Source of the DNA: Jiangella ureilytica
Lineage (GTDB): Bacteria > Actinomycetota > Actinomycetes > Jiangellales > Jiangellaceae
DNA length: 46,709 nt
Reading direction: 5' to 3'
Assembly (NCBI RefSeq): GCF_004348545.1
Contig: NZ_SMKL01000047.1
Coordinates: 1-46,709, forward strand
The notes under the pieces were generated by a model. It saw nothing but the letters and a program-made list of their open reading frames with translations. It did no database searches and was not told the DNA's origin. A program made the position numbers and the translations under genes. Positions 3 to 16,820 of the stretch are shown one piece after another (the stretch's first letter is position 1; every line of letters starts with the position of its first letter).

Positions 3-491
3 CCGACGCTGCCACCGGGCATGCGCCAGCCCGAACCCGTCACCGTCCCCGACCCCGCCACGGTCGACGGCGGCGACCCGACCGCCGTCGCCGTCGCGGC
101 GCTGACCGCGGCCTACAGCTTCGACACCGCGCACGACGCGTCGTCGGCCGACGCCATGGACCGGGCGCAGACCTGGCTCGCTGCGCCGTACGACTCCTCC
201 GCCTACGACCTCGACGGCCTGCGCCAAGACGTCGAGCGCGACTGGGAGCGCTGGTCCCAGCACCAGGCGTTCGCCTCGATCAACGGCATCGAGCCGCACA
301 CCACCGACGTCGACACCCCCGACACCGCCACGCGCGCCGAGCGCCGGTTCTACGTCCGCATGACGCCCATCGGCCGCGACGCGTGGAACGGCCCGCTCGT
401 CGAGCACCAGTGGTTCGCGTTCCTCGAGCGCGCGTCGGCCGGCGACCCGTGGCGCGTCGTCGGGCTGCAGACGCCGCTGGCGCATCGCTGA
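3..491 (+). CDS. 3' part of a conjugation-like (TcpC/VirB8-type) protein, 5' end outside window
   Basis: The reading frame is open from the first complete codon at base 3 to a TGA at 489-491, so the gene almost certainly begins upstream of the window; the first internal ATG is at base 21. About 163 residues are visible. They begin with a Pro/Val/Asp-rich stretch and end in an alpha+beta domain rich in Trp and Arg (AERRFYVRM, HQWFAFLER, WRVVGLQTPL). That pattern recalls the extracytoplasmic NTF2-like domains of TcpC/VirB8 proteins of conjugation machines, which sit behind one membrane anchor. An FtsK-type ATPase follows 81 bases later on the same strand, which fits a conjugation-like cluster. 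The assignment is inferred from fold-like sequence features only; no catalytic residue is expected. Confidence 0.6.
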   Translation, partial: PTLPPGMRQPEPVTVPDPATVDGGDPTAVAVAALTAAYSFDTAHDASSADAMDRAQTWLAAPYDSSAYDLDGLRQDVERDWERWSQHQAFASINGIEPHTTDVDTPDTATRAERRFYVRMTPIGRDAWNGPLVEHQWFAFLERASAGDPWRVVGLQTPLAHR

Positions 492-572
492 GCCGTCCCC
501 TTGTCACAACACCCCCGCAAGACGCACCTTCGAAGACGAGGACACGAACGCACCGAACGAGAGGCAGCCGGC

Positions 573-2450
573 GTGGCGCGACATGACCCGGTCGAGTCCT
601 TCACCACCGGCTCCGGACCCCCGGAGCCTGAGGCGAAGGACGACAGGTTCGCGTCGGCGCGCCCGGCCGGGCCCACCATCAAGGGCTTCACGCCCGCGCA
701 GCTCACGGCCACCGCCATCGGCACGGTCCTCCTGGCCGTCAGCCTGTGGGCCATCCTCGCCAGCCTCGACCAGGCGGTCATCGGCGTGCTGTTCCTGCTG
801 CCGACACTGGCCTGCGCCTGCGCGTTCTACGCGGTGGGCGTGCGCCGGCGCATGCGCCAGGGGGTCATCGACGAGCTGGCCGAGGTGCTGGCCCGGCACA
901 TCGGCGTGCCCGACGCGACCTACCTCGACATCGACGCGCGGCAGTGGCAGGGTCGCGGCTGGGTCGGCGTGCCGCACGTGCTGAACATCCAGTACCCCAC
1001 CGAGGTCGACGACTCCGCACCCGACTGGGCCTCCGGCGTCGCCGAGGCCGTGCATGCGCAGCTGGACGAGCAGTACACCGTCGGGCGGCACAACGTCCGC
1101 GGCCACCGGCTCACCCTGCGCGACCCCACCCGCACCGGCGGTACCCTGACGCCCGAACCGGCCGCCCGGGCCGACCGCGCCCGCGACGCCGTCCGCCGGG
1201 CACTGCCCGAGACGGTGGCCCGGCCGGTTCCCACACAGGCCGACCTCACGTCGTGGCTGGTCCCCCTGGGCGTCGACGGCGCCGGCACCCGGGTCGGCTG
1301 GAACCTGGCCGCGCCGCAGGGTCACCTGCTGGTGCTCGGCCGGTCCGGCGCCGGCAAGCGCGTGCTGCTCACCGGCATCGTCGTCGAGGCGGCGGCGCGC
1401 GGCTGGCCGGTGTGGATCATCGACCACCGCCGGGTCGACCTGCTGGGCGTGCGCGACTGGCCGAACGTGCAGATCGTCGCGTCCACGCTCGACGACCAGA
1501 TCGTCGTGCTCAACCAGGCCTGGCGCGAGATGGAGGGCCGGGTCGCGCTCATCGAGTCCGGGTCCAGCCGCACCGAGCTCGAGCCGCTGGTCGTCGTCGT
1601 CCACCACTTCCGCGAGTTCGCGTCCGCCGTGGCCGACGCCGCCAACCGCGCCGGCCAGGGCCCCGCCGCCGCGTCGCTCGCCCTCGACCGCGTCAACGAC
1701 CTGCTGCGCCACGGCCGGCAGGTCAACGTCTACGTCGTCCTGAGCATCCAGCGCGCCGACGACCCCTTGCTGCGCGAGGAGAACCGCGACGAGGTCGGCA
1801 CCGTCGTCGCGCTCGGCCGGCTCGACAACCGCGCCGCGTCCACCCTGTGGAGCGGCAACGTGCCCGCGGAGCAGGCCGAACCGGTGCCCGGCCGGGCCAC
1901 CGTGCAGGCCGGCGACGGCACGCCGGTGCTCATCCAGTGCTTCTGGACGCCCGACCCGCGCGAGGCCCGCCGCGTCAACGACGAACAGGACCTCTACCTG
2001 CTCGACGCCCTGCGGCCCAACGTCGTCACGCACCCGGTGCTGCATGTGCAGCGGTCGCGGGCGCTGACCGACAGTCCCGAGGCGTCGTGGCGGGTCAACC
2101 TCAACGCCGATCTCGCCGAGGGCTACGGCTCCAGCACGTCCAGCCTGGCCGACTGGAGTCGCGCCCGCACCGGTGGCTCGTCCGGCGGCTCGGCGGGCGG
2201 TTCGGCCACCATCGCTCAGACCGAGGCGGCCGGCTGGTCCGAGATGGTCATGGTGTCGCAGCTGCAGGTGGGCAGCCTCGCCCGCCTCGACGACGACACC
2301 GGCTGGGTCATCATCGAGCAGGTCGAGCCGGTCCAGAACGACGGCACCAAGCTGCTGATCCGCTGGCGTGGCAACGACGGCGCCGGCTCCCAGATGGTGT
2401 CGCGAACCCGCGCGGTGCGCATCCGGCACCTCAACGACGGCATCTACTAG
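573..2450 (+). CDS. Membrane-anchored FtsK/SpoIIIE-type ATPase with degenerate Walker B
   Basis: This encodes 625 residues from GTG 573, which has GAGAGG 7-12 bases upstream; a TTG at 501 in the same frame would add 24 residues but has no ribosome site. Two hydrophobic segments near residues 42-62 and 67-87 anchor it. The motor domain has a Walker A motif (GRSGAGKR, 256-263). A later strand, YVVLSIQRADD, matches the sensor strand of FtsK motors with its conserved Gln. The Walker B strand reads LVVVVHHFREF: the acidic pair is replaced by His344-His345, so ATP hydrolysis may be lost or altered. A Gly/Ser linker near 533-546 leads to a small beta-rich C-terminal domain. FtsK/TcpA relatives pump DNA or drive secretion at the membrane. 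The downstream membrane gene starts 17 bases later, suggesting an operon. Confidence 0.85.
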   Translation: MARHDPVESFTTGSGPPEPEAKDDRFASARPAGPTIKGFTPAQLTATAIGTVLLAVSLWAILASLDQAVIGVLFLLPTLACACAFYAVGVRRRMRQGVIDELAEVLARHIGVPDATYLDIDARQWQGRGWVGVPHVLNIQYPTEVDDSAPDWASGVAEAVHAQLDEQYTVGRHNVRGHRLTLRDPTRTGGTLTPEPAARADRARDAVRRALPETVARPVPTQADLTSWLVPLGVDGAGTRVGWNLAAPQGHLLVLGRSGAGKRVLLTGIVVEAAARGWPVWIIDHRRVDLLGVRDWPNVQIVASTLDDQIVVLNQAWREMEGRVALIESGSSRTELEPLVVVVHHFREFASAVADAANRAGQGPAAASLALDRVNDLLRHGRQVNVYVVLSIQRADDPLLREENRDEVGTVVALGRLDNRAASTLWSGNVPAEQAEPVPGRATVQAGDGTPVLIQCFWTPDPREARRVNDEQDLYLLDALRPNVVTHPVLHVQRSRALTDSPEASWRVNLNADLAEGYGSSTSSLADWSRARTGGSSGGSAGGSATIAQTEAAGWSEMVMVSQLQVGSLARLDDDTGWVIIEQVEPVQNDGTKLLIRWRGNDGAGSQMVSRTRAVRIRHLNDGIY

Positions 2451-2467
2451 GGGCAGGGACGCCGACC

Positions 2468-2776
2468 ATGGCCGACAACGTCTCCGACAACGACCTCTTC
2501 GTGATGTTCCTGGCCGCGCCGCTGGCGCTGCCGGTTGCCGCGCCGCTGGTGTTCAGCTCGTGGGAGGAAGGCCGCGAGTGGATGATCGAACGCGGCTTCA
2601 TCGCCTCGCCCGAGGACGCCGTGTGGGAGGTGCCCGGCTGGGAGGGCGCCGGCGTCAGCGGCGCCCACGTCGTCCTGGGCGTCTGCCTCATCGTGCTGGT
2701 CCTCGCCCTCGGCTCGGTCGTCTCGCGGCGCAACAGGAGCAGGAGGATCGACACCGAGGGCTGGGGCCAGGGCTGA
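2468..2776 (+). CDS. Small two-TM membrane protein
   Basis: This 102-residue protein begins at ATG 2468, 17 bases after the FtsK-like gene, with a purine-rich GGGCAGGG ribosome site just after that gene's stop. It has a hydrophobic segment near residues 10-29 and another near 66-86, joined by an acidic, Trp-containing loop (WMIERGF, WEVPGWEG). A basic RRNRSRR stretch follows the second segment, so that end probably faces the cytoplasm. I do not recognise the family. Its position as the last gene of a cluster with an FtsK-type ATPase and a TcpC-like protein suggests it is an accessory membrane subunit of the same machine. It ends 14 bases from the end of the convergent acetyltransferase gene. 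Confidence 0.7.
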   Translation: MADNVSDNDLFVMFLAAPLALPVAAPLVFSSWEEGREWMIERGFIASPEDAVWEVPGWEGAGVSGAHVVLGVCLIVLVLALGSVVSRRNRSRRIDTEGWGQG

Positions 2777-2790
2777 CGCTCGGGCCTGCC

Positions 2791-4023
2791 TCAGAAGATC
2801 TCCACGGTCACCGGTGCGCGGTGCCAGCCGAACGCGGTCGCGGTGCGCGCCACTGCGCCCGGGGTCCGCTCGGTGACCAGGCCGCCGGCCGCTAGCGTGG
2901 CCGCCGAGACGCCGCCCAGGTAGAGCGAGCCGAGCGCGCGGACGTCCAGCGCCAGGTCGGCCTCGGCGTCGGTACGTGTGACCTCGGCCGACTCGACGGA
3001 CCCGGCCAGCCGCCACCGGCCCGCGTTGCCGGGGAAGGCGTCGTCGGCGACCTCGAGCACGACGTCGACGGGTGCGGCGTAGCGGCGAGCGGCCAGCGCG
3101 CCGGCGACGTCGAGGATGCGGACCCACAGCGAGCCGTCGGCCGACCCGACCAGGCCGTCGGGGTTGGTGACCAGGTGCGGCAGCGGGTCGTCGACGGGCC
3201 CGTGCGTGTACTTGACCGTGCGCACGAGGTCGATGGTCGTGAGGAACCGCCAGAGCGCGGCGTGCGCCTCGGGCGTCTCGGCCAGCAGCTCGGTGATGCG
3301 CACCTCGCCGTCGGGACCGGTGTCGCCCCAGCCGGCCTTGGTGCGGTAGCGCGCATAGCCGCGGACGCCGCCGTCGTCCTCGAACAGGACGGTGCGCTCC
3401 GCGGTCATGCCGCGCCGCCAGGCCTTGGGGTCGGCGGTGAGGTACTCCCACCACTTGCCCGGCCGGCTGGACAGCCCGGGCCGCGCGGCGCGGATGCGGT
3501 CGTAGACGGGCACGATGACGTCGAGGACGTCGCGGGTGACGGCACGCCGCAGCCGGGCGCCGTCGGGCAGGGCGCCGACCACCGAGGTGTCGCGGACGGA
3601 GATCTCGTACGACACCCGCGACGACGCGAGCCCGTAGCCGTACCGTCCGTAGATGGCGCCCTCGCTGGCCCACAGCACCGCGAAAGGCTCGGTGCCGCGG
3701 CCGTGCGCCTCGGTGAGCATGGCGTTCATGAGCGCCGTCAGCACGCCGCGCCGCCGGTGGGTCGCCGCCACCCCGACGCCGGTGACGTGCGCGGCCGGGA
3801 CGACCGCGCCCGGGACGCTCATGTCGCGCGTGATGACCAGTCCCGAGCCCACGATGCTGCCCGCGTCGGTCATCAGCTGCGTCCGGTCGGGCTCGAACAC
3901 CAGCCGGTTCAGGTCGGCGGTGTCGTCGTCGACGTCGTCGAGGAAGGCGCCGTGGATGTGCGCCTCGAGCTCCGTGTAGTCGTCGTCGGTGGCGGTTCGG
4001 AGTACCAGCTGGTCGTTCGTCAC
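2791..4023 (-). CDS. Eis-type GNAT N-acetyltransferase
   Basis: This 410-residue protein has the length and layout of the Eis family: an N-terminal GNAT domain, a second degenerate GNAT-like domain, and a C-terminal sterol-carrier-like domain. The acetyl-CoA loop is visible near residues 83-96 (VGVAATHRRRGVL). The tyrosine-rich IYGRYGYG motif at 124-131 matches the region that holds the catalytic Tyr in Eis. The chain ends in Phe410; in mycobacterial Eis the C-terminal carboxylate is a catalytic base, and Eis also ends in Phe. Family members acetylate amines such as lysine side chains or aminoglycosides; the substrate here is unknown. Translation starts at GTG 4023 with AAGGA a few bases upstream. 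It faces the plus-strand ATPase cluster and lies downstream of the coiled-coil genes on the minus strand. Confidence 0.88.
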   Translation of the reverse strand: MTNDQLVLRTATDDDYTELEAHIHGAFLDDVDDDTADLNRLVFEPDRTQLMTDAGSIVGSGLVITRDMSVPGAVVPAAHVTGVGVAATHRRRGVLTALMNAMLTEAHGRGTEPFAVLWASEGAIYGRYGYGLASSRVSYEISVRDTSVVGALPDGARLRRAVTRDVLDVIVPVYDRIRAARPGLSSRPGKWWEYLTADPKAWRRGMTAERTVLFEDDGGVRGYARYRTKAGWGDTGPDGEVRITELLAETPEAHAALWRFLTTIDLVRTVKYTHGPVDDPLPHLVTNPDGLVGSADGSLWVRILDVAGALAARRYAAPVDVVLEVADDAFPGNAGRWRLAGSVESAEVTRTDAEADLALDVRALGSLYLGGVSAATLAAGGLVTERTPGAVARTATAFGWHRAPVTVEIF

Positions 4024-4081
4024 CGTCCTTGTCTAGCGCATGGCCCTTGGCCGGACCAGAGGTTTTCCGGGGCTTCGAGGT

Positions 4082-4480
4082 TCAGCCGGCCGCGAGCCGC
4101 TCGCGCTGCCGCTGCCGCTCGATCTCGTCGAGCGCCCGCCCGTGCGCGCGCCGCTTCGCCGTCAGCTCGCCGTCGACCTTCTGGCAGGCGGTCTTGAGCA
4201 GCTCGACGATCTGGTTCCAGCGCTCGGCGAGGGCCGTGCGGGCGGCGGCGAACGCGGAGTCGATGGCGGTGTCGAGCCGGCCGCGGATGGCGGCGTCGTC
4301 GGGGAGCGCCTCGGCGGTCTTCGCGGCGAGCCGCTGCCGCACGTGGGCGAGGTCGGCCTCGGTGTCGTCGCGGGCGCCGGCGGCCTGCGCGATGGCCGCC
4401 CGCAGCGCCGCGAGCGACTTCTCGAGCGCCCGGATCTCGCCCTCGAGCTGATCGGCGACCTTCATGGACGGCAGGTACAC
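4082..4480 (-). CDS. Small coiled-coil protein, last gene of FtsK-like cluster
   Basis: This 132-residue protein (GTG 4480), or 127 residues from ATG 4465, is almost entirely helical, rich in Ala, Glu, Arg and Leu. Long heptad-like stretches (LEGEIRALEKSLAALRAAIA and the Arg-rich end) predict a coiled coil. There is no signal peptide, membrane segment or enzyme motif. Its start lies 2 bases after the stop of the upstream coiled-coil gene, so the two are probably co-translated. I do not recognise the family. Neither start has a strong ribosome site, which favours coupling to the upstream gene. It is probably a structural or adaptor subunit that works with the upstream coiled-coil protein. Confidence 0.7.
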   Translation of the reverse strand: MYLPSMKVADQLEGEIRALEKSLAALRAAIAQAAGARDDTEADLAHVRQRLAAKTAEALPDDAAIRGRLDTAIDSAFAAARTALAERWNQIVELLKTACQKVDGELTAKRRAHGRALDEIERQRQRERLAAG

Positions 4481-4482
4481 CG

Positions 4483-5088
4483 CTACCGCCGGGCGACGTG
4501 GACGGCCTCGTGGCCGCGGTCGCGGATGGCCCTGGCAGCCGCCGGGATGACCTGGCCGAGCCGCTTCTTGACCTGCGCGAGGTTGGTGGTGACCTGGCCG
4601 GCGCCCTTGGTGATCTGCTCGCCGCTGTCGAGGATCTGGTCGGTGCTGCGGCCGATCTGCTGGGCACCGTCGGCGATGCCGTCGACCGCGCGCTCGAGCT
4701 GGTCGGCGCTCTGGCGCAGGCTGTCGGTGAACCGGGTGACCTGTGCGGCGATGGGGCGGATCTGCGGCTCGAAGACGGCGGCGAGGTCGGTGTCGCCGCG
4801 CTGGAGGTCGTCGCAGGCCGCCTGGAGCAGCCGGGCGCCGTCCTCGGTGACGGCCGCGGCGCGTTCGAGCTCCTCGAACTTGGCCCGCGCGTTCTCGGCC
4901 CGGGCCCGCAGCCGCGCGGTGGCCGCCTTCGCCTCTTCGGCGGGCGCCCTGAGGTCGCGCAGCGCCTCGATGGCAGCATTGGCCTTCTGCTCCAGCTCGG
5001 TGAGCCCGCGCGAGGTCTCTTCGCCGCCGCGGGTGAGCCCCGCGGAGACGTCGATGAGGATCTCGCCGGATTCCTTGATGCTCGGCAT
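4483..5088 (-). CDS. Long coiled-coil protein of the FtsK-like cluster
   Basis: From ATG 5088 this encodes 201 residues. An ATG at 5121 would add 11, but 5088 has GAAGGG 9 bases upstream. The sequence is nearly all heptad-like helix: an N-terminal part with IKESGEILIDVSAGL, a central Ala/Arg/Glu coiled coil, and a C-terminal stretch of polar repeats (DGAQQIGRSTDQILDSGEQI) like the helical hairpins of SMC-like or methyl-accepting proteins. No membrane segment or signal peptide is seen. It lies 125 bases downstream of the two-TM repeat protein and almost abuts the next coiled-coil gene. A cytoplasmic scaffold or length-determining role is inference; the family is unknown to me. Confidence 0.72.
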   Translation of the reverse strand: MPSIKESGEILIDVSAGLTRGGEETSRGLTELEQKANAAIEALRDLRAPAEEAKAATARLRARAENARAKFEELERAAAVTEDGARLLQAACDDLQRGDTDLAAVFEPQIRPIAAQVTRFTDSLRQSADQLERAVDGIADGAQQIGRSTDQILDSGEQITKGAGQVTTNLAQVKKRLGQVIPAAARAIRDRGHEAVHVARR

Positions 5089-5143
5089 CGGACGCCGCCC
5101 TTCTGGGTCTGTGGCCCGCATCCGCCGGGATCGGTCGGGCCGT

Positions 5144-5155
5144 CTACATCTGTAG
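5144..5155. promoter_or_regulatory. Perfect 12-bp palindrome upstream of coiled-coil genes
   Basis: CTACA-TC-TGTAG is a perfect palindrome in the 125-base gap between the two-TM repeat protein and the coiled-coil gene that starts at 5088. Its position suggests an operator or a small hairpin separating two transcription units of the cluster. No binding protein can be named. Confidence 0.3.
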
Positions 5156-5213
5156 GTGGTTTCCGGACCGCGAATGTGACGCGTTGCGGCAATTCAGTGC
5201 GGGCCAGTGCGTC

Positions 5214-6512
5214 TCAGAGCGCGCCGGCGCCGATGTTCGCCGCCGCCAAGGCGAGCAGGGCCGGGCCGCCGATCTGGGCCGCATACCGCGCCAGCCCCAG
5301 CGGGTGCGGCCGGCGTGCGAGGCCGGCGCCGCGGCACACCCGCGGCGACCGGCGGGCGGCCGCCACCCCCACGCCGACGGCGACGACGACGAGCGTGCAG
5401 GCGGCGAGCAGCGCGAGCGACACGGCGGCCGACGTCCGCGTGCCGGCGACGACCATGACGGCGGCACCGGCCAGCCCGGCTCCGACCGCCGCGCCCAGGG
5501 AGACGCGCCTGGTCTGCTCGTCGCGGGCCGCCAGCCAGCCGGCGAACTCCTCTTCGGCCAGCCGCAGCGCGTCGCGACGGCGGCCGAGCGACGTCAGCGC
5601 TACACCGAGATCGGCGCCGCCACCCGAGCGGCGCAGCCGGTCGAGCCCGCCCGGGCCGGCGGTTCCCGAGCGGGGAACGCGGCCGTTGCCGGCGTGGGCG
5701 GTGCGGCCGCTGTCGTCAGCAGGCTCGGTGTCATGGCCGAGTGGGCGCGCCCGGCCGGGCTCACCCGTGCGGGGGGTGTGGCCGTTGCCGGGGTGGGCGG
5801 TGCGGCCGCTGTCGTCAGCAGGCTCGGTGTCATGGCCGAGTGGGCGCGCCCGGCCGGGCTCACCCGTGCGGGGGTTGTAACCGTTGCCGGCCTGGGCGGA
5901 CGGGACGCTGTGGTCGTCGGGTTCGGTGCCGTGGCCGGGCGGGCGCAACCGGGCGAGTCCGGCCGGGCTGACGGTCGCTGGGCGGGGACCGCGGCCGGTG
6001 CCGGAGCCGGCGGGGTGGCGGCCGTCGTCAGCAGGCTCGGTGTCGTGGCCGCGTAGGCGTGCCCGGCCGGGCTCACCCGGCCCGGGACCGCGGGCGTCGA
6101 GGTCGTCGTCGGCCGGATCGGGGAGGGCGAGGTCGGCCTCGGTCCCCCAGGTGGCCGGTGGGAGGGGGAGTCCGTGCGCGGCCCGGACGGCGGCGCAGTG
6201 GTCGAGGCCGTCGTCGGCGGCGAGGGCGGCGCGGTCGATGCCCCTCAGCCGGGACGTGGCCGTCAGCTCCCGCTGCTCGGTGTCCTCACGGGTGCCGGCG
6301 TCGTCGTTGCGCAGCAGCTGCTCGGTGCTCTGCACGGACGACGTGAACCGGGCCAGGGTGGCGCAGTAGGCCCGCATGGCCGGGCTGCGCGCCGGCTGCC
6401 CGGCCGGCCCGGCCGCCCTTCCGGCACCGCCCTGCCCTGCGGGAGCACCCTGCCCGGTCCGCGCCGCGGTGCCGTGGTCGCCGACCGCGCCGAACTCGAG
6501 GTCGGCGGTCAT
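5214..6512 (-). CDS. Two-TM protein with internal 33-residue repeats, coupled to EccC-like ATPase
   Basis: The ATG at 6512 overlaps the TGA of the large ATPase gene (ATGA), so the two are translationally coupled. The 432-residue product has a helical N-terminal third (MRAYCATLARFTSSV and following). A disordered Gly/Pro/Arg/Asp middle follows, with four copies of a roughly 33-residue unit (EPGRARPLGHDTEPADD and variants); the last two copies, near residues 212-277, are almost identical. A helix (LRLAEEEFAGWLAARDEQ) then leads into two membrane segments near 340-385, with a hydrophobic C terminus. No family is recognised. The layout suggests a membrane anchor with a long cytoplasmic tether for the soluble ATPase encoded just upstream. 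Confidence 0.75.
   Translation of the reverse strand: MTADLEFGAVGDHGTAARTGQGAPAGQGGAGRAAGPAGQPARSPAMRAYCATLARFTSSVQSTEQLLRNDDAGTREDTEQRELTATSRLRGIDRAALAADDGLDHCAAVRAAHGLPLPPATWGTEADLALPDPADDDLDARGPGPGEPGRARLRGHDTEPADDGRHPAGSGTGRGPRPATVSPAGLARLRPPGHGTEPDDHSVPSAQAGNGYNPRTGEPGRARPLGHDTEPADDSGRTAHPGNGHTPRTGEPGRARPLGHDTEPADDSGRTAHAGNGRVPRSGTAGPGGLDRLRRSGGGADLGVALTSLGRRRDALRLAEEEFAGWLAARDEQTRRVSLGAAVGAGLAGAAVMVVAGTRTSAAVSLALLAACTLVVVAVGVGVAAARRSPRVCRGAGLARRPHPLGLARYAAQIGGPALLALAAANIGAGAL
5681..5878. repeat. Tandem 99-bp direct repeat inside the two-TM protein gene
   Basis: Two adjacent 99-base units, 5681-5779 and 5780-5878, are identical over about the first 93 bases except for one C/G difference at the thirteenth base. 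They encode successive 33-residue units of the linker. Two more diverged copies lie at higher coordinates. The near identity indicates a recent duplication, or homogenisation that would allow the tether length to vary. Confidence 0.9.
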
Positions 6513-9307
6513 GGGAGTGCCCCGGACCCGGGCGACGGCGACACGGCGGCCGACACCACCGGACGCGGCTCGGGCAGGACCGAGCCGACCTGAAGGGGAT
6601 CGAGCAGGACGGGGTCGGCGTCGCCGGCGAGGTCGTGGAACCAGAGCCGGCCGCGCGTGGCGGGGAACGGCGGCCGGACGCCGAGGAAGGAGGTGGTGTC
6701 GATGAGGTCGCCGCCGGCGTCGGCGCGCAGCTGCAGCCGCTCGCCGTGCTGGCCCAGCTTGCGCCGGCGGTCGGGGGTGTCGAGCCAGATGAGGGGGAAC
6801 ACCGACTGCGCCGGCCCGGCGCCGCACAGCCAGCCGAACGGGTGCGGCTCGTCGGTGTACATGGGGGCCTCGGCCGAGCTGTACTGCAACCCCAGCACCG
6901 CGACGAACACCGGGCCGGGCAGCCCGCCCGCGACCGACGGCAGCTCGTCGAGCGCGTTCTCGCCCAGCACCACGGCGCGGTCGCCGAGCCAGTCGACCAC
7001 CTGGTCGAGCGAACGCCGTCCGGGAATGCGCTCGGGCAGCAGGTCGACGACGACGACACCGGCGTCGTCGCAGCCGGGCTGCAGCGCGAGACCGGCCAGG
7101 ACACCGCTCACCGCACTGACGGCATGGGCCTCGTCGCGGCCGGCGAGCAGCAGGCCGCGGCCGTCGCCGGCCCGAGCCGGCACGCCCACCAGCGGAGGCG
7201 ACACCCCGACCGGCGCCCCCACGTACATCGTCGGCAGCGGCGCCGACGACAGCACGGGCGCGACGTCGGCCACGTCGACCCCGCCGGTGCCGCGGCTGAC
7301 CCGGATGCGCGGGTCGGTGCCGTCGCGGGCGACGACGGTGTCGCGGATGCGGCGGCGGTCGTCGGCGTCGAGCAGGCCACCCTGGAACAGCTGGTCGGCG
7401 TCTTTGTCGCCACGGGCCTGGTTGAGGACGCCGGACCCGCGGCGGCCGGTGTCGAGGCGGTCGCGCACGGTGCGGTCGAACAGGATGCTCAGCTCGTCGG
7501 GCTTGCAGCGCAGCCCGACCCGCAGCTCGAGCTGGTCGAACACCGACGCCTTCTGCGCGGCCCGGCCGGAGCCGACGGAGTTGAGGCTCTGGGTGGCCAG
7601 CAGCACGTGGATGCCCTGGCTGCGGCCCTGCTTGACCAGGACGTCGAGGGTGTTCCAGGCGGCGTCCTCGGTGGGGCCGGCGAGCATGAGCTGGAACTCG
7701 TCGGCCACGAACAGCACGCGCGGCAGGACCCGCCCGGTGACCTCGCGGTACTGGGCGATGTTCTTGATCTCGCGGCCGGAGTCGGCGGAGGCCTGCTTGA
7801 ACAGCTGCTTGCGCTCGGCGTCGACGGCGGCGAGGTGGCGCAGCACCCCCAGTGCGAACGTGGCGTCGGCCTCGATGCCGACGGCGCGCACGTGCGGCAG
7901 CGCCGGCCGGCCGGGCCGGGGCGCGTACTCGGCGAACTCGACACCGGCCTTCATGTCGAGCAGGTAGAGCTCGAGCTCTTCGGGCGGGTAGCGGCGGACC
8001 AGGGCGTGGATGAACGCGTGCAGCAGAGTCGTCTTGCCCGACCCGGACGGCCCGACCACGATGCCGCCGATGGCCACGCCTTCGTCGTCGCCGACGGTCA
8101 GCTCGATGGGGGAGCCGTCGGCCGCCTGGCCCACGACGGCGCCGATGCGCGCCGCCGTCGTCCCCGTGGCCGCGGGTTCGGCGGCCAGCAGCTCGGACAG
8201 CACGACCGGACGGTTGACGCCGCTGCGGACCGCCGGCGCGAGGACCGTGGTGAGGAACCGGTGCTGGGCGGAGCCGGGCGGGTTGGGGCAGCGGAGCCGG
8301 GCGTTGTGCAGCAGCGCCGGCGGCGAGGACTCCCAGGTGGCGCCGCCCTCGTGGTCGACGTGGATGTGCTCGGCGTTCTCGAGGAGGTCGGCGATGGCCA
8401 CCCCTTGCGGCAGCTCTCGCCCGGCGTCGACGACGGCCACCACCGCGATGCCGCACCGGTTGCCCGTGCGCGCCAGCGACCAGAGCTGCTGGGCGTCGTC
8501 GGCGGTGAGGTGCGGGCCGAGCCCGGCCGCCAGCACGAGCGCGCACGGGATGCCCTGGGCGGTGCCCTCGTGCCAGCGGGTGACCAGCGAGTCGTCGTCG
8601 CCGAGCAGCACCTGGCTGTTGAGGCGGTGGACGTGCTCGCGCAGCGCCCGCAGCTCGGCCGAGACCTCGTCGTGCGTGGCGCGGACGCCGCCGGCCACCA
8701 GCGGCTCGGGCAGCCGGCTGAGGATGCCGAGGTTCTGTCCCAGGCCGCCGGGGTCGAGCAGGTGCAGCCGCAGCGAGCCGGGGAGTGCCGACGCGAGGGC
8801 GCGGGTGGCGAATGCCTGGGCGAGGTTGTGCGCAGGCGCCCGGCCGCCGGGCGCGTGGGTGATGACGACGTTGCCGCCCAGCGCGGGCAGGACGAAGGGC
8901 AGCTCGACGATGCTGCTGGGGGAGGCGAGCCCGAGCGTGGCCGCCCGCACCACCTGGGTGACGTCGACGGGCTGGTCGTAGGGCTCGGCCCAGAGCGCGG
9001 ACTCCCAGCCCTCGTGGGCGTAGCCGGGGCCGCGCGCGAGCAGTTCGGTGATGTCGAGGCGGACGCGGTCGGCCGCGGCGAGCAGAGAGGCGTGTGACCG
9101 GGCCTGACGGCGGCGGGACTCGCGGGCGATGGACTGCTGGTCCTCGGTGAGCCGGTGGCGTTCGCGCCGCGCGGCGGTGTCGGCGAGCGCTCGCAGGTGG
9201 AGCGCCGCGTCCTCGGTCGCCCGGACGGCGCCGGCCAGAGCGGCGGGGCCGTCGTCGTCGGGGTCCGGGCCACGGAGGAGACCGGGACGGAGGGCGGTGA
9301 CGCGCAT
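6509..9307 (-). CDS. EccC-like soluble ATPase with three tandem FtsK/SpoIIIE modules
   Basis: The 932-residue product starts at ATG 9307 with AGGAAGGG 8 bases upstream. Residues 1-100 are charged helix. Three FtsK-like modules follow. Module 1 keeps the fold signatures (LHLLDPGG, then ALREHVHRLNSQ, then a strand before GIAVVAVVDAG) but has no P-loop. Module 2 is canonical: Walker A GPSGSGKT around Lys425, Walker B LFVADEFQLML with Asp536-Glu537, and sensor strand IHVLLATQSLNS. Module 3 has a broken P-loop (LLLAGRDEAHA) and a strand VVVVDLLPE without a clear catalytic acid. Three tandem ATPase domains with only one intact is the plan of EccC/YukBA motors in type VII secretion, but the N-terminal TM region of EccC is missing. 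The two-TM protein encoded next may supply the anchor. DNA translocation or protein export are both possible. Confidence 0.85.
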   Translation of the reverse strand: MRVTALRPGLLRGPDPDDDGPAALAGAVRATEDAALHLRALADTAARRERHRLTEDQQSIARESRRRQARSHASLLAAADRVRLDITELLARGPGYAHEGWESALWAEPYDQPVDVTQVVRAATLGLASPSSIVELPFVLPALGGNVVITHAPGGRAPAHNLAQAFATRALASALPGSLRLHLLDPGGLGQNLGILSRLPEPLVAGGVRATHDEVSAELRALREHVHRLNSQVLLGDDDSLVTRWHEGTAQGIPCALVLAAGLGPHLTADDAQQLWSLARTGNRCGIAVVAVVDAGRELPQGVAIADLLENAEHIHVDHEGGATWESSPPALLHNARLRCPNPPGSAQHRFLTTVLAPAVRSGVNRPVVLSELLAAEPAATGTTAARIGAVVGQAADGSPIELTVGDDEGVAIGGIVVGPSGSGKTTLLHAFIHALVRRYPPEELELYLLDMKAGVEFAEYAPRPGRPALPHVRAVGIEADATFALGVLRHLAAVDAERKQLFKQASADSGREIKNIAQYREVTGRVLPRVLFVADEFQLMLAGPTEDAAWNTLDVLVKQGRSQGIHVLLATQSLNSVGSGRAAQKASVFDQLELRVGLRCKPDELSILFDRTVRDRLDTGRRGSGVLNQARGDKDADQLFQGGLLDADDRRRIRDTVVARDGTDPRIRVSRGTGGVDVADVAPVLSSAPLPTMYVGAPVGVSPPLVGVPARAGDGRGLLLAGRDEAHAVSAVSGVLAGLALQPGCDDAGVVVVDLLPERIPGRRSLDQVVDWLGDRAVVLGENALDELPSVAGGLPGPVFVAVLGLQYSSAEAPMYTDEPHPFGWLCGAGPAQSVFPLIWLDTPDRRRKLGQHGERLQLRADAGGDLIDTTSFLGVRPPFPATRGRLWFHDLAGDADPVLLDPLQVGSVLPEPRPVVSAAVSPSPGSGALP

Positions 9308-9450
9308 GCCTGCCCTTCCTGTCGAGGTGCCTGTCCCCTACGAAAGTGCGCGGGATGGCCGCTTTGTGACGGGAAGGAGCGGAGCTTCTGCGGAGGGCGT
9401 TCAGGGTCCGGCGACGACGGCGTCAGGGTCGAGGGCTCGGGCATGACGCG

Positions 9451-9478
9451 GCCGGCCGACTCCGGGGTGTCGGCCGGC
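9451..9478 (-). terminator. Hairpin terminator after the four-TM protein gene
   Basis: GCCGGCCGAC, an 8-base loop, then GTCGGCCGGC form a perfect 10-bp stem. It lies 34-61 bases beyond the stop of the minus-strand gene at 9512-10000 and before the start region of the EccC-like operon. There is no T-run, as is usual for actinobacterial intrinsic terminators. The other 140 or so bases of this gap show no gene. Confidence 0.6.
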
Positions 9479-9511
9479 GAGGGTGCTCCGGGTCATACGA
9501 ACGGGCGAGGA

Positions 9512-10000
9512 TCAGAGATGGTCGTCGTCGCCGTCATCGGGAACTCGGACGAATCGTTCGAGCATTTCCGCTTCGGTTTCCCATTCGGGATACTTGACCA
9601 AGATCGAACTGGTGACCATTCCGATGCCGAGGCCCACTCCGAACACCCAGAGGTCCGCTGAGAACCATCCGAGCAGAGCAATGGCGCCGGCGCCCGTCAG
9701 GGCACCCTGACCGACCACCGTCGCCCACCCCGCGACGTAGTCGTTGTCCCGGCGCCGGGCGATGAAGTCGACCCCGCCGCAGGCGAGGCCGATGACCGCG
9801 ACGGGAATGAAGGCCGCATGCAGGTCGGCGACGCCCGCCAGGTCGGCGAGCGTGGCCAGCGCGGCCAGGATGATCGCCACGATCGAGGCGATCATCGTGC
9901 CGATGCCGAGCAGCAACAGCTTGGTCTGCCGCACCGCCATCGAGGTGTAGGCCTCGACCGCGGCATTCTCGGCGTTCACCAAATCGTCTCTGTATTCCAT
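9512..10000 (-). CDS. Four-TM membrane protein of unknown function
   Basis: ATG 10000 has GAGAGGT 5 bases upstream and gives 162 residues; a GTG at 10006 in frame lacks a usable ribosome site. The N-terminal 25 residues are polar and helical (MEYRDDLVNAENAAVEAY), followed by four hydrophobic segments: near 28-47, 58-73, 89-107 and 111-130. The C-terminal tail is acidic (VPDDGDDDHL). A central RRRDNDY loop probably faces the cytoplasm. No family or enzyme motif is recognised. It sits alone between two terminator-like hairpins, so it appears to be a monocistronic unit between the ATPase cluster and the trx genes. Confidence 0.7.
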   Translation of the reverse strand: MEYRDDLVNAENAAVEAYTSMAVRQTKLLLLGIGTMIASIVAIILAALATLADLAGVADLHAAFIPVAVIGLACGGVDFIARRRDNDYVAGWATVVGQGALTGAGAIALLGWFSADLWVFGVGLGIGMVTSSILVKYPEWETEAEMLERFVRVPDDGDDDHL

Positions 10001-10130
10001 GTACACCTCTCGCCTGACGTCCCAGAGCCCCGGTCACTGACACGGTAGGTGTCCTAGCAAGGACTTCCGTGACGAGATGATCCGGGAGAACTGAGGACTC
10101 GGCAAACGGAGCGGCTCGTTTCTGCGGATA

Positions 10131-10145
10131 CGACATTCAATGTCG
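10131..10145. promoter_or_regulatory. 15-bp palindrome in the trxA / four-TM gene gap
   Basis: CGACATT-C-AATGTCG has perfect 7-base arms around one base, the shape of a dimeric repressor site. It lies 131-145 bases upstream of the four-TM gene start, in a locally AT-richer stretch. A second palindrome, CGTCCG-GT-CGGACG, is at 10240-10253. The 370-base gap 10007-10376 holds these, the trxA terminator and no convincing gene. Confidence 0.35.
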
Positions 10146-10290
10146 GTTTCGGTCTCCGGGGCAAGAGGTCCGGAGCAAACTAGTACGCGCTACAACGTCT
10201 TTTTACGGCGATTGTGACGGTTATGTCCGAATGATTTTTCGTCCGGTCGGACGATGGTGGCCGCCGATCGGCCGATGGGTGCACAGACGA

Positions 10291-10333
10291 CGGCGCCCGC
10301 CGGGCGGACACTGGAGTCCGCCGGCGGGCGCCG
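10291..10333 (-). terminator. trxA: Strong GC hairpin terminator after trxA
   Basis: An arm starting CGGCGCCCGCCGG pairs with its complement across a 6-base loop, giving about 18 paired bases with one bulged G. It begins 44 bases past the trxA stop. It marks the end of the NUDIX-to-trxA gene series. There is no uridine tract, as is common in actinobacteria. Confidence 0.75.
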
Positions 10334-10376
10334 GTGTGCGGTGCGTTGCGCGGGCCGTCTGGTCGCCGCGAAGGCG

Positions 10377-10700
10377 TCAGCCCACGTAGTCGGCGAGGTC
10401 GTTGAGGAGCGCGGCCTTCGGCTTGGCGCCGACGATCTGCTTCACGACCTGACCGCCCGAGTAGACGTTGAGGGCGGGGATCGAGGTGATGCGGTAGCTG
10501 GCGGCGATCTCGGGGTTCTCGTCGACGTTCAGCTTGACGATCTCGAGATTGTCCTGCGACTTGGCGATCTCCTCGAGCACCGGGGCGATCATGCGGCACG
10601 GCCCGCACCACTCGGCCCAGAAGTCGACGAGGACGGGCTTGTCGCTCTGGAGCACCTTCTCGTCGAAGTCGGCGCTGGTGACGTGCTGGATGTTGCCCAT
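10377..10700 (-). CDS. trxA: Thioredoxin
   Basis: This 107-residue thioredoxin has the active site WCGPC at residues 31-35, preceded by VLVDFWAE, and the conserved cis-Pro loop (ITSIPALNVY). It reduces protein disulfides in the cytoplasm and is itself reduced by the thioredoxin reductase encoded 49 bases upstream. The start ATG 10700 has AAGGAG 6 bases upstream. The size and motifs are fully typical. Its place behind sigM-rsmA-trxB matches the block in Streptomyces and mycobacteria. In M. tuberculosis sigM and the following genes respond to stress, but no SigM-type promoter was identified here. Confidence 0.97.
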   Translation of the reverse strand: MGNIQHVTSADFDEKVLQSDKPVLVDFWAEWCGPCRMIAPVLEEIAKSQDNLEIVKLNVDENPEIAASYRITSIPALNVYSGGQVVKQIVGAKPKAALLNDLADYVG

Positions 10701-10749
10701 GGAGGACTCCTTGATGGTGGGCGCTTCTGTGGTGACGGAGCTGGGGTCG

Positions 10750-11718
10750 TCAGGAGACGACGAGCTCGGGCTTGGTGGCGCGGGCGTCGTCGAGGTCGGC
10801 GAGGTACCGCTCGGCGTCGAGCGCGGCCTGGCAGCCGGTGCCGGCGGCCGTGACGGCCTGCCGGTAGGTGTGGTCGACGACGTCGCCGGCGGCGAACACG
10901 CCGGCGATCTCGGTGCGGGTGGACGGGGCGTCGACGAGGACGTAGCCCTCTTCGTCGAGGCGGACCTGGCCCTTGAACAGCTCGGAACGGGGGTCGTGGC
11001 CGATGGCGATGAACAGCCCGGTGACGGGCAGCTCACTCTCGGCGCCGGTGACGGTGTCGCGCAGCCGCAGCCCGCTGACCTTCTCGTCGCCCTGGACGTC
11101 GAGCACCTCGGTGTTCCACAGGAACTCGATCTTCTCGTTCGCGAACGCCCGCTCCTGCATGACCTTGGAGGCCCGGAGGGAGTCGCGGCGGTGGATGACG
11201 TAGACCTTGCGCGCGAACCGGGTGAGGAACGTGGCCTCCTCCATGGCGGAGTCGCCACCGCCCACCACGGCGATGTCCTGATCGCGGAAGAAGAACCCGT
11301 CGCAGGTGGCACACCACGACACACCGTGCCCGGACAGCCGCTTCTCGTTCGTCAGGCCGAGCTCGCGGTAGCCCGAGCCGGTGGCGATGATGACGGCGCG
11401 GGAGCGGTGGACGGTTCCCTCGCTGTCGGTGACGGACTTCACGTCGCCGGTGAGGTCGACCGCGATGGCGTCGCGGGTGAGGATCTCGGCGCCGAACCGC
11501 TCGGCCTGCGCGCGCATCTCGTCCATCAGTGCCGGGCCGATGATGCCGTCGCGGAAGCCGGGGTAGTTCTCGACCTCGGTGGTGTTCATGAGGGCACCAC
11601 CCCAGCTGACCTCGCCCTCGAGGAGCAGCGGCTCGAGCCGCGCCCGGGCAGCGTACACAGCGGCCGTGTACCCGGCCGGCCCGGAACCGATGATGATCAG
11701 GTCACGGATCTCTGTCAC
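10750..11718 (-). CDS. trxB: Thioredoxin-disulfide reductase
   Basis: This 322-residue flavoprotein transfers electrons from NADPH through FAD and a redox-active cysteine pair to thioredoxin. The FAD-binding [10 protein letters not shown] motif is at residues 11-20, the active-site CATC at 136-139, and the NADPH-binding [10 protein letters not shown] just after it. The later GVFAAGDV motif is the second FAD contact. The length is normal for bacterial low-Mr reductases. Translation starts at GTG 11718 with AGGAAGG 7 bases upstream. trxA lies 49 bases downstream, so the pair is probably one transcript. The anti-sigma gene ends 88 bases upstream. Confidence 0.97.
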
Positions 11719-11806
11719 GCCTGTACCTTCCTAGCGTCTGACGTTGGTTCATCTGCCCCAACGGATCCTAGGCGGTCGGCATTCCCGGCGGGGGTGTTGT
11801 GGCCCT

Positions 11807-12643
11807 TCACTCCGCCTTCGGGACCTGGACCTGCGGCTCGAGCGTGGCGGTCGAGTACGAGTGGCAGGTGTCGAGCAGCCATCCGTCGTAGGTGTCGGCG
11901 CCCTCGAGGACGATCAGCACACCGGCCTCGAACGTCTCGGCGCCGACGACGGGCTGCCCCAGCTCTTCGGACAGCTCCTCGCCGCAGCCAGGCCCGCCGG
12001 TGGGGCGCTCGCTGACGATGCTCGCGACCGCGGCCTGCAGCTCGGCTTCGTCGACGCCAGGCGGCGTGGCGAAATCGTCGCCGCCGCTGTACGTGGGCAC
12101 ATCATCGTCGTGGCCGTCCCCAGCGGTCACCGTCGGATCAGGCGCCCCACGCAGCGGGCCGACGCTGGTGGGCTCGTCAGACAGCGCGGAGCCGGCGGCG
12201 ACCTCGGCGCTGTCGCCGGCGCTACCGCTGTCGTCTCCGCCGCCGGTGCCGCCGCTGACGACGACGTAACCGGCCAGGCCGACGACGGCGACACTGGCGG
12301 CCGCCGCGAGGCCCTGGGGGAGCCGGCGCCGGAACCAGGCGACGGTGCCGCCCTCGGACCCGGACGCCCCCGCCGCGGCGGACGCGGCCGTCGCCGCACC
12401 GCCCGACGACCGCTCGGCGGCCAGCGCGTGCGAGATGCGGGCGGCGACGAACTCGGGGACGGGCAGCTCGGCCGGCAGGGCGCCCAGCGCGACCGTGACC
12501 TGGGCCAGCTCGTCGATGGCGGCCTGGCAGGTGAGGCACTGATCGACGTGGGCGCGGGCCTCGCGCGCCTGGGCGCCGTCGAGCACGCCTTCGGCCAGTT
12601 CGGCCAGTACGTGGGTAGGCGGATGGGCCTCGGTACCGCTCAC
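11807..12643 (-). CDS. rsmA: Zinc-binding anti-sigma factor of SigM
   Basis: The GTG start at 12643 overlaps the sigM stop (GTGA), the usual coupling of an ECF sigma gene to its regulator. The 278-residue product has an N-terminal ZAS-type anti-sigma domain with the HxxxCxxC motif (HVDQCLTC: His32, Cys36, Cys39). A linker and a single membrane segment near residues 112-132 follow (ASVAVVGLAGYVVVSG). An extracytoplasmic acidic domain ends with Cys-containing stretches (GGPGCGEEL, LLDTCHSYS). It should hold SigM at the membrane until a signal releases it. The outer domain is longer than in minimal anti-sigma factors and may sense the signal. The gene symbol follows the M. tuberculosis neighbour order. 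Confidence 0.9.
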   Translation of the reverse strand: MSGTEAHPPTHVLAELAEGVLDGAQAREARAHVDQCLTCQAAIDELAQVTVALGALPAELPVPEFVAARISHALAAERSSGGAATAASAAAGASGSEGGTVAWFRRRLPQGLAAAASVAVVGLAGYVVVSGGTGGGDDSGSAGDSAEVAAGSALSDEPTSVGPLRGAPDPTVTAGDGHDDDVPTYSGGDDFATPPGVDEAELQAAVASIVSERPTGGPGCGEELSEELGQPVVGAETFEAGVLIVLEGADTYDGWLLDTCHSYSTATLEPQVQVPKAE

Positions 12644-13305
12644 CGATGCTCACCTCCCGTTCCACGCGATGTCCCAAATGGGACGTCGCCACCGGGTGCT
12701 TGGTTCCCCGTGGCGTTGCCCGTGGTGCTCAGCCGGCCGGGGGCCAGCAGCGGGACCAGCTTGGCCCGGGCCCGTGCGCACCGGCTCTTGACGGTGCCGA
12801 CCGGGAGCCCCAGCATCTCGGCCGCCTCGGCGACCGGGTAGCCCTCGACGTCGACCAGGACCAGCGGGAGCCGCTGCTCGGCGGGGAGCGACGCGAGCGC
12901 CTGCTCGAGGTCGACGCGCAGGGCGGTGCGCTCGGCGGGGTCGGCGGACGGCTCGGTGGCCGGCGCGACGCCCGGGATCTCGGTGCCGTCGAAGGCGACC
13001 GGGTCGGCCGGGCGGGCCGCGGCGTGCCGGACGCGGTCGAGGCAGGCGTTGACGACGATGCGGTGCAGCCAGGTGGTGACGGCCGACTCGGACCGGAACG
13101 ACGCCGCCCGGCGGAACGCGTTGATCATGGCGTCCTGCAGGGCGTCGGCGGCGTCGTGGGGGTCGCCGAGGGTGCGCAGCGCGACCGCCCACATGCGGTC
13201 CTGATGCCGTGTGACCAGCTCGCCGAAGGCCTCGGGATCGCCGTCGACGTGCCGGCGCAGGAGCTCCTCGTCAGGCACCCGGGGACCGGGCGAGGGCTGC
13301 GTCAC
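12640..13305 (-). CDS. sigM: ECF RNA polymerase sigma factor SigM
   Basis: This is a 221-residue extracytoplasmic-function sigma factor. Region 2 spans roughly residues 12-85, with the DNA-melting helix around AMINAFRRAASFRSESAV. Region 4 is near 145-190, with the helix-turn-helix AEAAEMLGLPVGTVKSR. The start is GTG 13305, not the longer ORF start, because GGAGGT lies 8 bases upstream and the GTG overlaps the murJ stop (GTGA). The gene is coupled to rsmA downstream. In mycobacteria SigM controls late or surface-related genes; its regulon here is unknown. The Pro/Gly/Thr-rich C-terminal tail after region 4 is probably disordered. Confidence 0.93.
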   Translation of the reverse strand: MTQPSPGPRVPDEELLRRHVDGDPEAFGELVTRHQDRMWAVALRTLGDPHDAADALQDAMINAFRRAASFRSESAVTTWLHRIVVNACLDRVRHAAARPADPVAFDGTEIPGVAPATEPSADPAERTALRVDLEQALASLPAEQRLPLVLVDVEGYPVAEAAEMLGLPVGTVKSRCARARAKLVPLLAPGRLSTTGNATGNQAPGGDVPFGTSRGTGGEHR

Positions 13306-16300: not shown

Positions 16301-16820
16301 TCATGGGGCCGAACCGGCCCTTGGCGTTGAGCATCTGGCCGATGAGCACGTACAGCCCGTAGAAGAAGATCTGCGGCAGGCAGAACCGGGCGAACATGAC
16401 CATGTTGTCGAAGTACGGCCGCATCTGCGGCTCGAGGTACTTGTCGTCGACGATCAGCTGCATCAGCAGCGGCGCGGCCAGCACCGCCAGCACCGTCGCC
16501 AGCCCCAGCACCGCCACGGACAGGCTGAACAGCCGCTGCGAGAACGCCTGGCCGCCGTCGGCGTCGTTCTTGATGGCGCGGACCAGCACCGGGACCAGGA
16601 CGGAGTTGAGGACGCCGCCGCCGACCAGGATGTAGATCATGTTCGGCAGCACGTTCGGCACGTTGAACACGTCGGCCGTGGCCGCCGTCAGGCCGATGGC
16701 CGCCGCGATGACGGCGGCACGGGCGAAGCCGGTGAGCCGCGAGACCACGGTCCCGGCGGCCATGATGGCGCTGGAGCCCAGCAGCCCGGAGCTGCGAGGC
16801 GGCTCTTGCGTCGCGGTCAC
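13302..16820 (-). CDS. murJ: MurJ/MviN lipid II flippase fused to pseudokinase and discoidin-like domain
   Basis: This 1,172-residue protein has three parts. Residues 1 to about 540 are the 14-TM MurJ flippase, which moves lipid II across the membrane for peptidoglycan synthesis. A cytoplasmic kinase-like domain follows near 640-900, then one TM helix (LLGVMAAMLLLVGATLVG) and an outer F5/8-type (discoidin-like) domain at the C terminus. The kinase is dead: the HRD motif reads HRH (790-792) and DFG reads AGL (809-811). The same fusion exists in M. tuberculosis MviN (Rv3910), where the phosphorylated pseudokinase recruits the FHA protein FhaA. The GTG start at 16820 has AGGAGG 7 bases upstream and overlaps the stop of the DUF6049 gene. 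It is coupled to sigM. Confidence 0.95.
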   Translation of the reverse strand: MTATQEPPRSSGLLGSSAIMAAGTVVSRLTGFARAAVIAAAIGLTAATADVFNVPNVLPNMIYILVGGGVLNSVLVPVLVRAIKNDADGGQAFSQRLFSLSVAVLGLATVLAVLAAPLLMQLIVDDKYLEPQMRPYFDNMVMFARFCLPQIFFYGLYVLIGQMLNAKGRFGPMMWSPILNNVVAIAVFGVFLFAYGTQGFEPFTTTQTLLLGLGSTVGVLAQAVILIPVLRKTGFSLRFRTDWRGQGLGESVRLGLWTVAFVVVNQLAYLVVVKVASGASSVDAGDAGAGYSVYANAMLIMMVPHSIITVSLATALLPRLSDLASDGHLEEVREKLVSALRMCLAIIIPLGALMAALAFPLTAMIFDYGSAGGQTGRLALTLIVLMPGLVAFTVHYLVLRGFYAMQDTKTPFYTQIWVSAVIMIGAVAVAVAAPGDQYVTMALAGGYSLAYLVGATVGAVRLQQRIGTLGGGRLVQHVIRLLIHSAIAAALAWLVWRGWTGLGISDALPSLLARMLELVIGGTVGVVTFVGLAYAFRVDEVRSAVAMVLARLRGGSRPGTAVDPGDLLEDTAEYLIPVETGTLSIFRRPVDPDMTSEFFLDETLPGVPSFFDTHAGGYRDRAGVGGAAAVGLDAGRDGARVVQPLPGTRPGATAEGPFAPRGPVGGQRRTVAGRYRFERLLEDVDGVQSWQAVDDVLRRAVFVQAVALDDPRAPGFATAARVSSTVSDPRFLRILDVGTDEVSYVVREWTPGQSLAALLAGGAFHPEQAAAVGREVAEALSTAHAQGLAHRHLDPTLVFVTADGSVKIAGLETEYALRGAAQTPCAPTDPSHPSPAELDAIGIGCVLYAALTARWPIGTPGGLAPAPLIDGRLASPRQVRPGVPRLLDAVTDRSIGHARRHHATPLVTPLAVATELANGSRNHHRAVVADEAVVAAPPALLDEPGTPPPSSRVEQLRERRKSGRTARLLGVMAAMLLLVGATLVGLQLLLGAIDDAGDDETPSTSAPGTTGTTPAEETPATEPSPVALAGVTDFDPLGNGEENPSDAENIIDGDPETVWDTVNYFDPLEDQKDGVGVYLDLGQVVAVREVRLALIDAGVTFELRVAPEDATQAPGDLDDWTAVDTVQDAEQNVTRTLDEPVSTRYLLVWFTQLPRLDDGNYRGGIAEAEVLG

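Follow-up and report, generated by a model that had tools for sequence, protein, structure and literature searches.

A four-gene operon with a soluble EccC-like ATPase and a coupled transmembrane protein in Jiangella ureilytica

Type VII secretion systems (T7SS) have been described in two phyla and are divided into types T7SSa/b and T7SSc-j (Garrett, Higginson and Palmer 2024, PMC11217815). Soluble homologs of EssC have also been reported from CoCoNuT operons (PMC11090510, 2024). In the passages of that paper drawn on here, these proteins possess three ATPase domains of which the central one alone is predicted to be active, carry an N-terminal coiled coil that can exceed 200 residues together with no transmembrane (TM) domain, and have genes for two WXG100 proteins and a coiled-coil-nuclease as neighbours. 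The same passages report that the cassette also occurs stand-alone, cite an older note on WXG100/FtsK operons (Anantharaman et al. 2012), and deem a different mechanism likely given the absence of TM domains. We describe here a motor of this type in Jiangella ureilytica. The stretch that was analysed (NZ_SMKL01000047.1, 46,709 nucleotides; hereafter the window) is one whole contig of a 6.35 Mb genome, and its minus strand encodes, in this order, a tri-module ATPase (the motor), a TM protein (the anchor, a proposed role) and two coiled-coil proteins (CC1 and CC2).

The Jiangella motor fits the description of the CoCoNuT-associated EssC homologs as given in those passages: it has three modules, Walker motifs in the central one only, no TM helix, an N-terminal coiled coil (here a helix of ~70 residues) and small helical partners. 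The motor family and its link to WXG100 proteins are therefore already known, and the operon is not the new kind of machine that an original prediction, made from the DNA letters alone, had considered. What looks new is the layout, with a separate anchor gene as opposed to a planctomycete fusion and, in Jiangella, a double-length hairpin with no recognisable WXG100 protein. Unlike the CoCoNuT loci as described in PMC11090510, the Jiangella locus has no recognisable WXG100 protein and no nuclease or TerY-P gene among the neighbours searched; its TM anchor is encoded separately, its two coiled-coil proteins are lineage-specific and its place on the chromosome is fixed. Neither a separate anchor gene nor the Jiangella coiled-coil pair is described in the cited passages of PMC11090510 or PMC11217815. 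With type VII EccC/EssC, as these passages present them, the motor shares the order of FtsK modules by structure and, in its relatives, WXG100-type partners; it differs in being soluble, with three modules and with the TM helices in the next gene. It also differs from T7SSa in that EccB and PF08817 were not found in the genome. The fold and Walker motifs of module 2 are those of FtsK/SpoIIIE DNA translocases, whereas the Jiangella motor has no TM domain, no gamma domain match and two extra degenerate modules. A TcpA-type conjugation coupling protein (6o1x) is different again, with a single ATPase domain that has its own TM helices and with a conjugative context.

With a rough probability of 0.55, we favour the reading that the operon is a split branch, without a recognisable WXG100 protein, of the soluble EssC-like/WXG100 motor family, and that it would serve as a membrane-tethered export engine.

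The motor, its coupled membrane protein and their conservation

The motor (6509-9307) is 932 amino acids (aa) long. Its AlphaFold2 model (mean predicted local distance difference test score, pLDDT, 88.6; predicted template modelling score, pTM, 0.77) begins with a long helix (residues 20-91), from which we infer the N-terminal coiled coil, and continues with three FtsK-like alpha/beta modules at about 119-374, 387-645 and 693-906. Three ATPase folds rather than one are thus modelled, the best Foldseek match is EccC and the three-module order is like that of EccC by structure, all of which bears out the EccC-like plan first proposed from the sequence. Module 2 contains a Walker A motif (GPSGSGKT from residue 419), the stretch DMKAG (451-455) and a Walker B motif (..VADEFQ, to 539); modules 1 and 3 are without Walker motifs, as had been foreseen. 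All 110/110 motors, that of Jiangella included, have one GxxxxGK[ST] motif and no more, in a set from which four duplicate loci were dropped and in which some motors are cut by contig ends. The motor had also been described as having no N-terminal TM region, and no TM helix was found in it; one weak hydrophobic stretch at 789 falls inside module 3.

The anchor gene (5214-6512) encodes a 432-aa protein and overlaps the motor stop with its own start as ATGA. This coupling to a two-TM protein with a repeat-containing linker, followed by two coiled-coil proteins, was correctly predicted at the outset, and the coordinates, strands and lengths of all four genes were confirmed. The protein consists of a conserved N-terminal part, a Pro/Gly/Asp-rich tandem-repeat linker and C-terminal TM helices at residues 337-355 and about 361-382. 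A 99-base-pair unit present in 2.7 copies (5681-5946) fills part of the linker. An ATGA or GTGA overlap joins motor and anchor in 14/14 loci of the Jiangella/Haloactinopolyspora clade, and a possible third TM helix at the C-terminus is over threshold in 12 of these 14, the window's locus not among them. The anchor ranges from 242 to 609 aa in relatives, and the gene that directly follows the motor encodes a TM stretch in 14/14 clade loci and in 15/21 other actinobacterial loci.

The two remaining genes encode CC1 (4483-5088), a 201-aa predicted helical hairpin, and CC2 (4082-4480), a 132-aa coiled-coil-type protein. In the AlphaFold2 model of CC1 (mean pLDDT 87.9, pTM 0.57) helices 4-98 and 100-200 form one hairpin about twice the length of a WXG100 protein. 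An alternative start upstream at 5121 would give a 212-aa form; the shorter form of 201 aa was the gene caller's choice in each of the 14 genomes.

The motor was found in 14/22 genomes of the order (12/12 Jiangella and 2/2 Haloactinopolyspora) and was not found in 5/5 g5 genomes of the same family, nor in three other genomes of the order, two of which are incomplete. The gene order trxA, 3-TM gene, motor, anchor, CC1 and CC2 is kept in the 13 relatives that were fetched, which together with the window gives 14/14; the four operon genes are accordingly conserved together wherever the motor was found in the order, contrary to the outcome that would have refuted the original prediction. CC1 is 201 aa in 14/14 genomes at 62-95% identity to the window's protein. 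The fixed length and high conservation of CC1 would be more in keeping with a component or obligate partner of a machine than with an effector that varies. CC2 keeps its place in 14/14 genomes at 28-73% identity; one CC2 (L032) is under the tblastn threshold, yet it is in place and clusters with the others. CC1 was not found in the other 8 of the 22 order genomes. Across the class, CC1 is present in 15/393 genomes, of which the fifteenth shows only a weak, partial hit (26.8 bits) away from a motor, and a motor match at 1e-40 is present in 55/393. Two genomes additionally have second, distant motor copies (L128, on contig C1 of genome G010, and L035, on C18 of G001), accompanied by a small gene with a TM stretch and by a protein of 86 aa; in G010 the motor frame of this copy was called as two separate open reading frames.

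Motor relatives and their small neighbours

A contig scan returned at least 468 relatives among at least 597 pattern matches. From these 80 were kept, many of them from Planctomycetota, and genes were called in 119 sequences, 114 of which have a motor. In Actinomycetota, Planctomycetota and other phyla, relatives of the motor frequently have proteins of 60-95 aa as neighbours. The usual planctomycete-type order is a 90-aa protein, a ~200-aa coiled-coil protein, a 75-aa protein and a ~1300-aa motor. In one set of 86-94-aa neighbours a Pfam WXG100 match at E<=0.1 was obtained for 28/28 (best 1.8e-11), and the first member scores 29.1 bits, over the cut-off. A motif test for 60-110-aa proteins with W-x-[D/G] found such proteins at 105/477 genes no more than four places from a motor versus 0/395 farther away, with at least one in 59/74 loci. 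Three models (A2, A4 and A7), partly built from the genes on which they were run, place a small protein near the motor in 62/76 loci L039-L115 (43/47 of those with full flanks) and in 20/21 other actinobacterial loci. The original claim of a motor without type VII partners is thus not supported, since the neighbours of relatives outside the clade are mostly of WXG100 type or of comparably small size. Since such neighbours are present and the motor type is published (PMC11090510, in the passages above), the Jiangella operon is best regarded as belonging to a known family, in which it forms a divergent branch, and not as an orphan class. The range of WXG100-flanked tri-module motors also extends past the two phyla for which PMC11217815, as cited, describes T7SS, most of all into Planctomycetota.

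In a quick maximum-likelihood tree of 50 motors (midpoint root; Shimodaira-Hasegawa-like approximate likelihood-ratio supports in brackets) the Jiangella/Haloactinopolyspora group (100) joins the Acidothermales motor L039 (100) and then L040 (99). Beside the anchor of L040 is a protein of 85 aa that is also found by the WXG100-type model A2. At L039 an anchor and motor are preceded by a ParA/MinD-type ATPase. The simplest reading is that a small partner was lost or replaced in the Jiangella branch, L039 leaving the timing unfixed.

The planctomycete loci differ in how the membrane part is attached. Motors of this type (1250-1345 aa) have an N-terminal extension before module 1 with at least two TM stretches in 38/47 cases and at least one in 42/47; a coiled-coil/TM extension is here part of the motor itself. 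This layout suggests that the separate anchor and the fused extension have one function, and the actinobacterial loci suggest a testable answer to the missing TM domains of soluble motors, namely that the anchor is encoded by a gene of its own, coupled to that of the motor.

Variation in the planctomycete loci was also observed. In two of them (L048 7144-8208 and L073 1191-2225) the ~200-aa coiled-coil partner carries a fused Imm33-like domain (54.2 and 41.6 bits), a possible cargo architecture. Other long versions of the partner (L041, L062, L101) have C-terminal regions without such a Pfam match. Two longer planctomycete motors (L055 and L084) are 1634 and 1667 aa, and the N-terminus of the latter, which precedes the coiled-coil/TM part, looks to us like a Ser/Thr protein kinase.

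A proposed tethered export engine weighed against its alternatives

Under the reading that we favour, the motor would assemble as a ring at the cytoplasmic face of the membrane, with module 2 burning ATP and modules 1 and 3 acting as non-catalytic docking or clamping parts. The anchor would tether this ring via a short TM hairpin on its flexible repeat linker, doing the job of EccC's own N-terminal TM helices, and six anchor hairpins could line a passage through which protein cargo would leave the cell. CC1 may take the place of a WXG100-type protein: an obligate partner or carrier, it would either be passed into the motor or open it. CC2 could be a faster-evolving co-partner or cargo. Such a four-gene system would be useful for asking what least set of parts EccC-type transport needs.

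The genome offers few recognisable type VII components. EccB (PF05108) was not found in it, as the original prediction had held for this operon, in a search whose control genomes are also without PF05108; nor was it found in the four other genomes of the family within a 79-genome sample of the class, 20/79 of which have it. PF08817, which we take to be the YukD domain of the EccD N-terminal type, was likewise not found, and the B. subtilis control matched; the predicted absence of EccD holds for that domain, the only one searched. The predicted absence of WXG100 proteins stands in so far as none in the window is over the curated cut-off, and is weakened by the motor relatives that lie beside WXG100 proteins and by CC1 itself, which ranks second among all PF06013 matches of the genome (18.7 bits against a cut-off of 27.3). 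The best match (23.2 bits) lies beside the genome's other EssC-like gene, on contig C102 (L145 7843-12570, minus strand; 1575 aa). That gene scores 349.8 bits on TIGR03925 (cut-off 346.55), with 615 on TIGR03928 and 405.2 on TIGR03924, both under their cut-offs; a weak WXG100-like frame is just upstream and Tad-like genes adjoin. Because of this weak upstream match, the motor may borrow a WXG100 partner from the C102 locus. The C102 locus resembles T7SSg/h, which PMC11217815, in its cited part, places next to Tad loci.

Several results weigh against the favoured reading. The motor is far under the curated NCBIfam EccC/EssC cut-offs (83.4/509.15, 64.1/346.55 and 55.0/778.4 bits). No WXG100 protein in the window or genome exceeds the curated cut-off, CC1 scoring 17.8-18.7 bits versus 27.3, and CC1 does equally well or better on other coiled-coil models: TPR_MLP1_2 and DUF948 (18.4 bits), MCE (26.4), SMC (22.5) and ZorA (21.4). 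Profile comparisons with hhalign gave values that are not significant for coiled coils, both for CC1 versus the WXG100 set (E 0.0033, probability 9.7) or the actinobacterial small proteins (E 0.0038, probability 8.7) and for those small proteins versus the WXG100 set (E 0.05). Models A2, A4 and A7 find nothing near the motor in 13/14 clade loci, the exception being a CC2 (L033) that matches A7. In the stretch fetched for L039, the closest relative (50% identity), no small protein of this kind was seen. The actinobacterial small proteins themselves touch PF06013 in only 2/12 cases; the 85-87-aa neighbour is without the Trp and matches DUF6244 in 3/12, so that its WXG100-like label refers to size, apparent helix pattern and place. 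Finally, when the anchor was compared by profile with the planctomycete extension, their sequence similarity (E 0.0011 over 20 columns) did not rise above noise (0.007 for the reversed control), and the argument that the anchor is fused elsewhere is consequently one from layout. It is only tentatively, and with more doubt than confidence, that we raise a distinct 'split-EccC' class of type VII-like export: motor and TM anchor would be coupled genes in Actinomycetota and fused in diderm Planctomycetota, and Jiangella would have neither WXG100 nor EccB, with CC1 as the replacement for WXG100.

The FtsK fold of the modules raises the possibility of a membrane-tethered DNA pump near the origin, involved in chromosome organisation or DNA transfer, for which CC1 and CC2 would be SMC-like adaptors. 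However, no FtsK_gamma domain is among the motor's matches up to E 1, the three-module order is that of EccC, and related motors adjoin WXG100-type proteins, which to our knowledge are not known from DNA pumps. We consider such a pump quite unlikely.

Genomic surroundings and the upstream leader

Upstream of the motor lie genes for a 3-TM protein, thioredoxin, thioredoxin reductase, an extracytoplasmic function (ECF) sigma factor and a MurJ-kinase-like fusion; Pfam searches of the neighbours at 2468-19015 also identified DUF6049, GNAT and unassigned membrane proteins. CC2 is followed by a GNAT/SCP2-domain acetyltransferase (2791-4023, minus strand; Acetyltransf_9, Acetyltransf_17 and SCP2_2) in 12/12 Jiangella. 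It was not found in the two Haloactinopolyspora loci and is probably not a core part. No coiled-coil-nuclease or TerY-P/VWA gene is among the window neighbours at 21-19015 searched against Pfam. In one genome (G011) the operon block lies between trxA and parB, near dnaA.

These surroundings bear on two further explanations. An intracellular role has been proposed for CoCoNuT/TerY-P-linked relatives, and the Jiangella motor and coiled coils might similarly act inside the cell in defence or stress, the anchor only positioning them at the membrane. One relative, in Aeromonas bestiarum (L101), points this way: a WXG100-type protein, a coiled-coil protein with a long C-terminal part and the motor are followed by Card1-like, VWA-like (our reading), PP2C and kinase genes, a layout that looks like the CoCoNuT arrangement and its extension as described in the cited part of PMC11090510. 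PADLOC also matches the motor to SspH (2.1e-14) and mad8 (9e-12) and CC1 to ZorA (1.9e-5), probably via the shared ATPase fold and coiled coil. The operon is, however, a chromosomal block kept in 14/14 genomes and not a scattered island, and among its searched neighbours, thioredoxin, sigma factor and MurJ fusion included, PADLOC matches only the kinase-like part of the MurJ protein. A defence or stress device thus seems unlikely to us. The fixed position beside housekeeping genes including murJ, the constant CC1 length and the lack of a recognised variable cargo gene would instead fit an envelope-assembly motor for polar growth or sporulation, with no diffusible substrate and with CC1 and CC2 as a membrane-side scaffold. 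But the motor is not generally needed, since it was not found in any of the five g5 genomes of the same family, and its family link to WXG100-flanked motors also argues against this role, which we hold to be improbable.

At the window's edge (21-2450, plus strand) lies another FtsK-like protein, 625-649 aa long and with two TM helices at its N-terminus, together with a small protein. In relatives (L136-L140) this pair borders Tad-pilus-like genes and a chromosomal type IV secretion system (T4SS)-like cluster containing a VirB4-like ATPase (67.2 bits on the TcpF model, far under the cut-off of 1100), a polytopic membrane protein and a CHAP-domain protein. In G011 the second-FtsK/T4SS-like region sits between the motor block and parB.

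The 3-TM protein (9512-10000, minus strand; 162 aa, or 155 aa by the gene caller here) is directly upstream of the motor in 14/14 genomes, has no Pfam match and is tied to the operon by position only. Its gene is preceded by a conserved, apparently non-coding leader (9990-10170, minus strand) that, among 296 class genomes, occurs in the same 14 as the motor, with one 33-base match in another family. The leader has no Rfam match up to E 1, and covariation is thin (1/42 pairs changed on both sides; covariation term +1.61). It is a candidate regulatory RNA, in which a conserved ACCTCT is predicted to be able to pair with the AGAGGT Shine-Dalgarno stretch in 6/6 aligned loci.

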